DNA from: an uncultured Clostridia bacterium
Lineage (GTDB): Bacteria; Bacillota; Clostridia; Christensenellales; Borkfalkiaceae
Length of the DNA stretch: 34,137 nucleotides
Direction of reading: 5' to 3'
NCBI GenBank assembly: GCA_947632505.1
Contig: CANRPN010000010.1
Location: forward strand, 1 to 34,137
Made by a program: the position numbers and the translations under genes. Below the pieces are notes generated by a model that did no database searches, was not told the DNA's origin, and saw only the letters and a list, made by a program, of their open reading frames with translations. Positions 9,543 through 13,194 of this stretch are shown here, in pieces (the stretch's first letter is position 1; each line of letters begins with the position of its first letter).

Positions 9543-10769
9543 ATGAATAAAATTCAGCTCAGAAGATACGCGAAATTGCTCGCAAGAACGGGCGTCAATG
9601 TAAAAAAAGGACAGTGGGTGATGGTAACTGCCGAACTCGACCAACCGGAATTTGTAGAAATGGTGGTAGAGGAGCTCTATCGTGCCGGCGCAGGCAAGGT
9701 CACGGTGGAATGGTCGCACCAGCCGCTCACCAAACTCAACTACAAGTATATGCAGGAGGAAACTCTTAAAAAGATCGAGAAATGGGAACTTGAAAAGCTC
9801 GAACTTCGCAAAAAAGAGCTTCCCGCCATGCTCTACATCGAGTCGGAAGATCCCGACGGGCTTGCCGGGGTCGATCAAGAGAAGTTCACGGCGGTCCGCA
9901 TGTCCCGCACCAAGGTGGTGAAACCCTATCGCGACGCGATGGAGAACAAGTATCAGTGGTGCATAGCGGCCGTTCCCTCCAAGGCGTGGGCGAAAAAAGT
10001 ATTTCCCGATCTCATGGTAAATACCGCCGTCGAGAAGCTGTGGGATGCCATTCTCGCCGCTTCCCGTGCCGACGGAAGCGATCCCGTGCGCGAGTGGGCG
10101 CGCCATAACGACGAGCTTGCGCAGCGCTGCGATTATCTCAACCGGCTCAAACTTGTTTCGCTCGAATACAAGTCGAAAAACGGTACCGATTTTAAGGTGG
10201 GGCTCATTCCCGAGAGTTCTTTCAAAGGCGGCGGGGAGGAGACGATCGGGGGCGCTTACTTTAATCCCAACATTCCCTCCGAGGAGATTTTTATCTCGCC
10301 CAAGGCCGGCGTAGCGGAGGGCATTGTCTATTCCACCAAGCCGCTTTCCTATCAAGGGGAGCTCATTGAGGACTTTTCGGTGCGTTTCGAGGGCGGAAAG
10401 GTCGTCGAGGTCAAGGCGAAAAAGAACCAGCACCTCCTTGAAAAGATGATCTCGATGGACGAGGGGGCGAAGATGCTCGGCGAATGTGCGCTCATTGCCT
10501 ATGATTCTCCCATCAATAATGCGGGGATCCTCTTCTACAACACGCTTTTCGACGAGAACGCGAGCTGTCATCTGGCGCTCGGGCGGGGATTCAACGAGTG
10601 CGTAAAGGGATTCGAGAGCATGACGAACGAAGAAATTCACGCAAAGGGCATCAACGACAGTATGATCCACGTTGATTTCATGATCGGAAGCGAGGATTTG
10701 GAGGTCGTCGGCGTTACGAAGAACGGCGATCGCGTGCAGATCTTCAAGAACGGGAATTGGGCATTTTAA
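9543..10769 (+). CDS. Aminopeptidase, M29 family (AmpS/PepS-like)
   Basis: 408 aa. RRYAKLLARTGVNVKKGQWVMV, NIPSEEIFISPKAGVAEGIVYSTKPLSYQGELIEDFSVRFEGGKVVEVKAKK, and C-terminal DSMIHVDFMIGSEDLEVVGV are typical of M29. Confidence 0.92.
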   Translation: MNKIQLRRYAKLLARTGVNVKKGQWVMVTAELDQPEFVEMVVEELYRAGAGKVTVEWSHQPLTKLNYKYMQEETLKKIEKWELEKLELRKKELPAMLYIESEDPDGLAGVDQEKFTAVRMSRTKVVKPYRDAMENKYQWCIAAVPSKAWAKKVFPDLMVNTAVEKLWDAILAASRADGSDPVREWARHNDELAQRCDYLNRLKLVSLEYKSKNGTDFKVGLIPESSFKGGGEETIGGAYFNPNIPSEEIFISPKAGVAEGIVYSTKPLSYQGELIEDFSVRFEGGKVVEVKAKKNQHLLEKMISMDEGAKMLGECALIAYDSPINNAGILFYNTLFDENASCHLALGRGFNECVKGFESMTNEEIHAKGINDSMIHVDFMIGSEDLEVVGVTKNGDRVQIFKNGNWAF

Positions 10770-10821: not shown

Positions 10822-10956
10822 CTGCTTTGCGTCTTAACTTGTTTGTCCTCTCGTTCGTTTCATCGGACACTAAGCCGTAAGAATGCGGCAAATTGAGTGC
10901 GCTGCCGCAGGGGGACCCTGCTCCGCGCAGTAATTGGGGAAATACAAAAAACTGTT

Positions 10957-11045
10957 CCAAAATGTCATGTCGACCGAAGCGGAGACATCTCTGCCGCATG
11001 ATAAAAACACGTTATGCTGAGCGGAACGAAGAGAAGAGGAAACAT
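10957..11045. repeat. Non-coding repeat-like segment (ATGTCgaCCGaagCGGaGACAT hairpin and a related unit)
   Basis: AAAATGTCATGTCGACCGAAGCGGAGACATCTCTGCC, then GTTATGCTGAGCGGAACGAAGAGAAG. Layout resembles TGTCAT...GAGCGAAGCG...ATCTC interspersed repeats. A related AAAATGTCATATCGA occurs at about 33988. Confidence 0.5.
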
Positions 11046-11072
11046 GTTCTAACCGTAACACAAGGAGTTTTT

Positions 11073-12248
11073 ATGATCAAAATTGATATTTTTTCGGGAT
11101 TTTTGGGCGCGGGAAAGACAACGCTCATCAAAAAGCTGCTCAAAGAGGCATACAGCGGCGAAAAAGTGGTTCTTATCGAAAACGAGTTCGGTGAGATCGG
11201 TGTAGACGGCGGATTTTTGAAGGAAACGGGCATCGAGATCACGGAGATGAATTCGGGCTGTATCTGCTGTTCGCTCGTGGGGGACTTTGCAAAGGCGCTC
11301 AAAGAGGTTGCGGCAAAGTTTTCGCCCGACCGCATTGTCATTGAACCTTCGGGCGTAGGGAAGCTCTCGGACGTCATCCGCGCCGTTCAGCGTGCGGATG
11401 TCGAAAATTCTCAGCTCAATGCATTCTGCACGGTTGTGGACGCCAAGAAGTGCAAGCTCTATCTCAAAAATTTCGGCGAATTTTTCCTCGACCAAGTGGA
11501 AAATGCAAGCTGCATCCTGCTCTCGCACACCTCCGATCCGAAAAAGGTAGAGGAGGCGCTTGCTTTGCTCAAAGAGCATACGCAGGCGACGGTCGTCACG
11601 ACCGATTGGGACGAGCTCAAAGGCATGGAGATCCTCGAAGTCATGGAGCGCAAAGACACTTTGAAAGCCGAGCTTGAACGGCTTGCTGCCGAGGCGGAAG
11701 AACACCGCCACGACGACGATGACGACGAACACGAATGTCACCACCATCACCATGACGATGACGATGAGCACGAATGCTGCCATCATCACCACGACGATGA
11801 CGACGACGAACACGAATGTCACCATCACCACGACGACGATGATGACGAGCACGAATGTCACCACGACGACGAACACGAATGCTGCCACCATCACCACGAC
11901 GACGATGACGATGAGCACGAATGCTGCCACCACCACCACGACGAGGAAGGACACGAACACCATCACCACCATCATGCGGACGAAGTATTCACGAGCTGGG
12001 GGGTCGAGACGGCGAAGAAGTTTACAAAAGAGGAGCTTACGGCTGCGCTCGCAGCGCTGGACGGAGGCGAATACGGCCAAATCTTGCGCGCAAAGGGAAT
12101 TGTGGACGGCGAAGACGGTTGGATCTATTTCGACTATGTTCCCGGCGAGGCGGACATCCGCGGCGGCGCGCCTGCTGTCACAGGGCGTCTGTGCGTGATC
12201 GGCTGTAAGCCGAACGAAGAGAAACTCAAAGATCTGTTTTTGAAATAA
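11073..12248 (+). CDS. COG0523 (CobW/ZNG-type) G3E GTPase metallochaperone with long His/Asp/Glu/Cys-rich repeat
   Basis: FSGFLGAGKTTLIKKLLKE (Walker A), ENEFGEIGVDGGFLKETG, NSGCICCSLVGDF (CxCC), and six EHEC-containing His/Asp repeats, then a CobW C-terminal domain. ATG 11073 with AAGGAG RBS. Confidence 0.93.
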   Translation: MIKIDIFSGFLGAGKTTLIKKLLKEAYSGEKVVLIENEFGEIGVDGGFLKETGIEITEMNSGCICCSLVGDFAKALKEVAAKFSPDRIVIEPSGVGKLSDVIRAVQRADVENSQLNAFCTVVDAKKCKLYLKNFGEFFLDQVENASCILLSHTSDPKKVEEALALLKEHTQATVVTTDWDELKGMEILEVMERKDTLKAELERLAAEAEEHRHDDDDDEHECHHHHHDDDDEHECCHHHHDDDDDEHECHHHHDDDDDEHECHHDDEHECCHHHHDDDDDEHECCHHHHDEEGHEHHHHHHADEVFTSWGVETAKKFTKEELTAALAALDGGEYGQILRAKGIVDGEDGWIYFDYVPGEADIRGGAPAVTGRLCVIGCKPNEEKLKDLFLK

Positions 12249-12249
12249 T

Positions 12250-13194
12250 ATGCCTAAGGAAGTTCCCGTCTATCTCTTTCTCGGTTTTTTGGAGTCGGGA
12301 AAGACAAAATTTATCCAGGAGACTATGGAGGATCCGCGCTTCGATTCGGGGGAGCGGACCCTGCTTCTCGTCTGCGAGGAAGGGGAGGAGGAATATGATC
12401 CCTCCCGCTTTGCCGTGGAGGAATTTGCGGTCGAGACGGTGGAGGAAAGCGGCCTTACGGCAGAAAATCTCACGGCCTTGGCAAAAAAGCACCGCATCGA
12501 TCGGGTCGTCGTGGAGTGGAACGGCATGCTTACCCTCGACAAATTTTTCGAGGCGATGCCCGACGGTTGGCTGATCGCTCAGGTGATGACCTTCTTTGAT
12601 TCCAACACCTTCCTATCCTACAACAAGAATATGCGGCAGCTTGTCTTTGACAAGATGCAGTACGCCGATATGGTGGTTTTCAACCGTTTTTCGGACAATT
12701 TCTCGCAGGAGGAATTTCACAAGATCGTCCGTGCGGCCACCCGCCGACCGGGGATCGTCTACGAATATGTGGGGGGAAGGGCGGTCTATGATGAGATCGT
12801 GGACCCGCTTCCCTATGATATCAACGCCAAGATCATTGAGATCGAAGATCGGGATTACGCTTTTTTCTACCGCGATCTCACGGAAGATATGCAAAAATAT
12901 GCGGGGAAGGTCGTGTCGTTCAAAGGCATGGTCGCGCTCGACAAAAAGATGAAATACGGCACGATCGTCGTCGGACGGCATATCATGACCTGTTGCGAGG
13001 CGGACATCACATTCAGCGGACTTGTCGTGAAGCATGCGAGCAACTTGCCGTTCAAAACGCGCGATTGGGTAAAACTGACTGCGCGCATCGACATTGCATA
13101 TGATAAAATTTATCGCCAGGAGGGTCCCGTGCTCAAAGCGGCGGCGCTTGATTTTTGCGATCCGCCCGCGCAGGAGCTCGCAACATTTTACTGA
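12250..13194 (+). CDS. Second COG0523-like GTPase with a C-terminal YcgQ/TIGR03943-like domain
   Basis: VYLFLGFLESGKTKFIQETM (Walker A-like). No CxCC motif. C-terminal GRHIMTCCEADITFSGLVVKHASNLPFKTRDWVKLTARI resembles the TIGR03943/DUF1980 domain. Starts 2 nt after the upstream stop. Confidence 0.75.
   Translation: MPKEVPVYLFLGFLESGKTKFIQETMEDPRFDSGERTLLLVCEEGEEEYDPSRFAVEEFAVETVEESGLTAENLTALAKKHRIDRVVVEWNGMLTLDKFFEAMPDGWLIAQVMTFFDSNTFLSYNKNMRQLVFDKMQYADMVVFNRFSDNFSQEEFHKIVRAATRRPGIVYEYVGGRAVYDEIVDPLPYDINAKIIEIEDRDYAFFYRDLTEDMQKYAGKVVSFKGMVALDKKMKYGTIVVGRHIMTCCEADITFSGLVVKHASNLPFKTRDWVKLTARIDIAYDKIYRQEGPVLKAAALDFCDPPAQELATFY

Follow-up and report, generated by a model that had tools for sequence, protein, structure and literature searches.

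COG0523 proteins are G3E GTPases, among them YjiA, YeiR, YciC/ZagA, CobW and ZNG1, and are characterized by a Walker A motif, the motifs hhhExxG and GCxCC and a CobW_C domain. About 40% of 887 COG0523 proteins contain a His-rich stretch near the C-terminus with up to 29 His residues, and an NKxD motif at the G4 position is listed as a hallmark of the G3E family (PMC2770081), with [ST]KxD being reported for some COG0523 members (PMC7895991). YjiA and YeiR prefer Zn (PMC7895991). CobW2 from Cupriavidus metallidurans, a product of the Zur regulon, has a big internal His-rich region which is predicted to be a random coil; it binds about 7 Zn, was called a zinc-storage protein and is a proposed zinc buffer (PMC11340326). 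YcgR and YcgQ, also named ScfA and ScfB, consist of an ArsP_1 permease and a DUF1980 protein (TIGR03943), and the ScfAB publication gives no molecular function for them (PMC5584981); a search for publications linking DUF1980, TIGR03943 or YcgQ to zinc yielded no functional paper. Dimerising GTPases with a SIMIBI fold are further represented by HypB and UreG, which act on Ni, and by the SRP-SR pair, with His stretches being present in HypB.

The window analyzed here, one entire contig of 34,137 nt from an uncultured Clostridia bacterium (assembly of 1.79 Mb in 130 contigs, 88% complete), includes two adjacent genes, A and B, which share features with all of these systems. The features common to COG0523 GTPases are found in A, but its loop is longer than their His-rich stretches (38 His, and up to 74 in relatives), contains a nearly equal amount of acidic residues and in many relatives also Cys, and is built from hypervariable repeats. 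A also differs from them by S[H/R]T instead of NKxD at G4 and by a constant partner GTPase. The large internal His-rich region is shared with CobW2, whereas no Zur signal was found for A, which is coupled to a GTPase-DUF1980_C partner. B has the C-terminal domain PF21537 in common with the DUF1980/YcgQ family; here, however, this domain is fused to a GTPase, and both the permease and the DUF1980 N-terminal domain are absent. Both A and B have the SIMIBI fold and resemble HypB/UreG and SRP-SR, but they are two unlike, co-encoded GTPases of which only A carries CxCC and only B an OB-like domain. What is added to the known systems is a constant two-GTPase module, in which a permease has been exchanged for DUF1980_C and a long loop, and a set of hypervariable loops that form a natural series.

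Genes A and B

Gene A starts with the ATG that follows the Shine-Dalgarno sequence (Table 1); the open reading frame start listed at position 10893 is merely the first TTG. The preliminary description had placed A in COG0523, which is borne out by its domains, as PF02492 (121 bits) and PF07683 (30 bits) both exceed their cut-offs and GCxCC, Walker A (GxxGxGKT) and Walker B (hhhExxG) are all present. The best Foldseek matches of the A model are YjiA structures (1nij/4ixm). An intact NKxD is not present in A, a deviation which had been overlooked and which is seen in the alignment: across the clade, nearly all orthologues examined have S[H/R/K]x at G4, usually without the D. With the domains and CxCC of COG0523 but without its G4, A is a COG0523 protein with an aberrant base-recognition motif, and the altered G4 predicts a weaker guanine selectivity. 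A is not assigned to the CobW equivalog of B12 metabolism (NCBIfam TIGR02475), for which it scores 91 bits compared to a cut-off of 332 bits.

Table 1. Positions of the features discussed. Positions without prefix refer to the window, those with an L prefix to other loci.
Feature	Position	Strand	Evidence
M29 metallo-aminopeptidase gene	9543-10769		
Dispersed-repeat-like intergenic sequence	10960-10992		
Shine-Dalgarno sequence AAGGAG of gene A	11062..11067	+	direct reading of sequence
Gene A, COG0523/CobW-type GTPase, 391 aa	11073..12248	+	PF02492 121.2 bits, PF07683 30.1 bits
Walker A GFLGAGKT of A	11097..11120	+	kept in 163 of 165 aligned rows; two rows truncated or mis-started at that end
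GCICC of A, CxCC metal motif of COG0523	11256..11270	+	165 of 165 aligned rows
Walker B EPSG (hhhExxG) of A, IVIEPSG in full	11343..11354	+	alignment
Degenerate G4 SHTSD of A where NKxD is expected	11523..11537	+	alignment
Metal-binding-type loop of A, aa 210-301, between GTPase domain and CobW_C	11700..11975	+	translation
Imperfect tandem array in loop DNA, as assembled	11708..11960		TRF
CobW_C domain of A, aa 306-389	11988..12239	+	PF07683
Gene B, second SIMIBI-type GTPase domain fused to DUF1980_C, 314 aa	12250..13194	+	PF02492 39 bits, PF21537 73 bits
Walker A GFLESGKT of B	12283..12306	+	alignment
NR at G4 position of B, D not constant	12682..12687	+	alignment
DUF1980_C domain of B, OB-fold-like in model	12823..13164	+	PF21537 73 bits
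MTCCEAD motif of B	12985..13005	+	two Cys and Asp invariant in 81 relatives
Predicted lipoprotein with DUF1980_C and CTCGND motif, znuABC locus of window genome	L250:4650-5180	-	Pfam
Small membrane-type protein, znuABC locus of window genome (contig C97)	L250:5313-5612	-	
Small membrane-type protein, sister znuABC locus	L246:7279-7587	-	
Permease-type loci	L229, L230, L231, L232, L236, L237, L240, L241, L242, L246		
Related permease-type arrangements	L214, L247		

Gene B, which had likewise been missed, starts 1 nt past the stop codon of A. Its diverged cobW-type GTPase domain retains the P-loop and E[Y/W]NG, and CxCC is absent from its alignment. The structural model of B has high confidence (pLDDT 91); Foldseek relates its GTPase domain to the SIMIBI proteins HypB, UreG and Ffh and its second domain to the OB folds of Ten1, RPA14 and AspRS. 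The invariant residues of the MTCC..D motif are C248, C249 and D252. Of the YcgQ architecture B contains PF21537 alone, without the DUF1980 N-terminal domain, and its TIGR03943 score (71.3 bits) lies below the cut-off of 88.8 bits.

Of 101 genomes of the genus, 91 have an A orthologue or relative, as do all 58 genomes with a completeness of 90% or more and little contamination. B follows A in 85 of 85 genus loci, where the two genes lie -7 to +16 nt apart. Among 80 loci from other Clostridia the B GTPase lies beside A in 75 and DUF1980_C in 72, with the remaining loci being mostly cut contigs, and in a sample across the class B is present in each of the 52 genomes whose A match exceeds 236 bits. 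Only few clients and partners of COG0523 proteins are known; the strictly linked B, with a domain that also occurs in zinc-uptake loci, is a concrete candidate binding partner.

The M29 metallo-aminopeptidase gene directly upstream of A is kept in 79 of 80 genus loci and perhaps forms one transcription unit with A and B in this genus. It was rejected as a client of A, since it is scarce outside the genus (11 of the 80 loci retrieved from other Clostridia, and five of these 11 appear to belong to the genus as well), and is at most a lineage-specific operon partner. TrkH/TrkA, encoded downstream, were also rejected as parts of the system, being present in about 10 of 53 genus loci. An intergenic sequence resembling a dispersed repeat (TGTCATGTCGACCGAAGCGGAGACATCTC) precedes A in the window and recurs upstream of A in close relatives (L005, L011).

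Sister loci and their zinc context

In sister lineages, a short-loop A is followed by a fusion of a B-like GTPase with an ArsP_1 permease and then by a separate DUF1980 gene. In one of these loci (L246) Pfam places this block in a single run of genes that also includes znuABC (ZnuA, an ABC ATPase and ABC-3), FUR and a further COG0523 gene; in a second one (L242) it adjoins znuABC and FUR, and in a related arrangement (L214) it lies beside ZnuA. The znuABC locus of the window genome itself, located on contig 97, includes a lipoprotein-like DUF1980_C protein (30.3 bits, cut-off 25.9), which suggests an extracytoplasmic zinc role of the OB-like domain. A possible zinc role is also suggested for DUF1980 in YcgQ/ScfB. 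The sister loci with znuABC and FUR, together with this DUF1980_C protein, place the parts of A, B and DUF1980 in zinc acquisition, and among Zn, Ni and Co the genome context favours Zn for A. The zinc link comes from the sister lineages and the separate znu locus; within the fusion clade, neighbour clustering of the fusion-type loci revealed no zinc gene as a recurrent neighbour.

A small protein of about 100 aa and of membrane type adjoins znuABC both in the window genome and in a sister locus. The two copies are homologous (BLASTP 1e-7), match no Pfam family and represent an unnamed protein that is conserved in zinc-uptake operons.

No conserved Zur box was found upstream of A, which sets it apart from the Zur-regulated YciC/ZagA, and nothing conserved was found among AdcR-like palindromes in this region. 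An Rfam search of the window gave no match. No Fur-family protein was found in the window assembly (88% complete), and the FUR family was detected in just four of 26 searched genus genomes, although the window genome has znuABC.

The loop length of A differs with the type of its partner. With a B-DUF1980_C partner the loop has a median of 74 aa and a minimum of 40 aa (n = 165), with a GTPase-permease partner a median of 12 aa and a maximum of 35 aa (n = 7), and intermediate loops of 28-46 aa occur in some permease-type or solitary relatives. In a maximum likelihood tree of A the fusion-type proteins form one group (support 97/80) next to the permease-type rows, the only odd row (L100) coming from a truncated contig. 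The association of loop and architecture is therefore probably one event and not a repeated correlation.

Proposed function of the pair

It appears rather likely that A and B form a cytosolic zinc buffer and chaperone pair derived from a zinc-permease operon. A would be a cytosolic COG0523 metallochaperone, whose disordered His/Asp/Glu/Cys loop, by analogy with CobW2, may load and buffer more than one ion of a metal that is most likely Zn(II). By comparison with YjiA, YeiR and CobW (PMC7895991), a nucleotide-switched CxCC site in the core of A would take single ions for transfer. A would work with the co-encoded B, probably as a heterodimer, and the OB domain of B with its MTCC..D motif may receive or check the ion. 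In the ancestral operon, B would have been fused to an ArsP_1 permease next to a separate DUF1980 gene, in some genomes beside ZnuABC and a Fur-family regulator. The lineage of the window would then have lost the permease, fused DUF1980_C to B and gained the long loop, a direction which we infer together with the rooting, and a membrane-coupled system would thereby have become a soluble pair for buffering and delivery. A farther-reaching version is put forward tentatively and appears doubtful as a whole: A and B would be an obligate asymmetric GTPase pair that hands over zinc in a nucleotide-gated heterodimer, a disordered hypervariable reservoir would have replaced the membrane permease, and this soluble module would be widespread in gut Clostridia. 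No description of such a module was found in the literature searched.

That the metal of the pair is instead Ni(II) or Co(II), as for HypB/UreG or CobW, appears unlikely. M29 aminopeptidases include Co-activated enzymes, and the almost constant position of such a gene upstream of A in the genus would fit with this idea, but clustering of the fusion-type loci shows no recurrent neighbour of note besides A and B. Precedents exist for Ni binding by His-rich stretches, in HypB, and for Co acquisition, by CobW (PMC2770081, PMC7895991); the ZnuA, ABC-3 and FUR proteins of the sister operons and the DUF1980_C protein in the znu locus of the window genome, however, argue for zinc.

Similarly improbable is a purely passive storage loop of the kind suggested for CobW2 (PMC11340326), for which nucleotide use and B would be irrelevant. 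The degenerate G4 of A would be consistent with such a role. A passive sink would, however, need neither the almost invariant P-loop, GCICC and ExxG of A nor the strict pairing with B, and is disfavoured by both.

Composition and turnover of the loop

In the window genome, the loop of A comprises 92 residues, of which 38 are His, 27 Asp, 16 Glu and 9 Cys, besides one Arg and one Gly. With just two residues other than H, D, E or C it is plainly not a product of chance, and with pLDDT values below 50 over residues 220-300 it is predicted to be disordered. The preliminary description had counted 38 His, 9 Cys and six EHEC motifs by eye, all of which the translation reproduces exactly, and its boundaries (11695-11980) deviate by no more than 5 nt. 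The near-repetitive DNA it had described is indeed an imperfect tandem array (TRF periods of 39, 66 and 81 nt among others), whose copies differ by 51 synonymous and 38 nonsynonymous codon changes, a mixture which speaks against a recent expansion of perfect triplets. Multi-site metal binding or buffering by the loop is plausible considering its composition, its disorder in the model and the precedent of CobW2, and the idea of a metal buffer is thus a reasonable one that already has a precedent.

The loop had been treated as a feature of a single protein, but a long loop marks one whole clade. An insertion rich in H, D and E, with or without C, is found at the identical site in 85 of 85 usable genus loci, where it comprises 40-118 aa with 16-50 His and 0-11 Cys; in other Clostridia, named isolates included, its length is 45-174 aa and its His number reaches 74 (n = 75). 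The description of the loop as long therefore holds in so far as it lies at the long end of the genus, but it is not extreme, as six of the 85 genus loops are longer, nine have more His and seven more Cys, and 35 of the 75 loops from other Clostridia exceed it in His. The EHEC unit with its Cys is likewise correct for the window genome but not conserved, as the unit differs between species (EHEC-HHHH-DDDDD; ECDDPDCECHHHH; HEEECRHEH or HEEECRHEHH; EHEHHHHDDDD; EHEHHHHDDDDD).

Loop turnover was compared between species, each of which is represented by a single genome in the collections. The preliminary description had suggested that copy number may vary between strains; between species it varies strongly, and the loops of species with 87-93% identity in the remaining domains are already separated by 13-37 gap positions. 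The composition is nevertheless kept: the genus loops have a His fraction of 0.42 ± 0.04 and an acid fraction of 0.44 ± 0.07, and their His number scales with loop length (r = 0.88). Loops without any Cys exist (eight of 85 in the genus, 10 of 75 elsewhere), so that Cys is optional and His and acid are the constant feature. As composition is kept and synonymous codons are mixed (CAT about 54%, GAT 39%, GAG 55%), we read this pattern as selection on loop composition (about 42% His and 44% acid) and not on sequence, under which the tandem repeats would turn over freely. The genus thereby offers dozens of loop variants with constant composition and varied length and Cys content, with which the relation of His-loop size to metal capacity and zinc hierarchy would be directly measurable.

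Neutral low-complexity DNA, expanded by slippage in a tolerant linker, could also give rise to imperfect tandem repeats and their rapid turnover in copy number. This origin is very improbable, however, as every genus loop consists of H, D, E and C to 80% or more (median 93%) despite differing units, as synonymous codons are mixed with all repeats in frame, and as short-loop relatives show that expansion of the linker is not obligatory. An assembly artefact, conceivable for a repeat in a metagenome-assembled genome of 130 contigs and 88% completeness, can practically be dismissed, as such loops occur in 85 independently assembled members of the genus and in the isolates Butyrivibrio hungatei DSM 14810 (L167), Evtepia gabavorous (L119), Faecalibacterium prausnitzii (L158) and Eubacterium pyruvativorans (L161).

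Within the loops of 26 of 85 genus loci and 16 of 75 other loci a motif of the form C[D/N][D/E]PxCxC (e.g., ECDDPDCECHHHH) recurs, which is possibly a discrete Cys metal site that predates the surrounding repeats.
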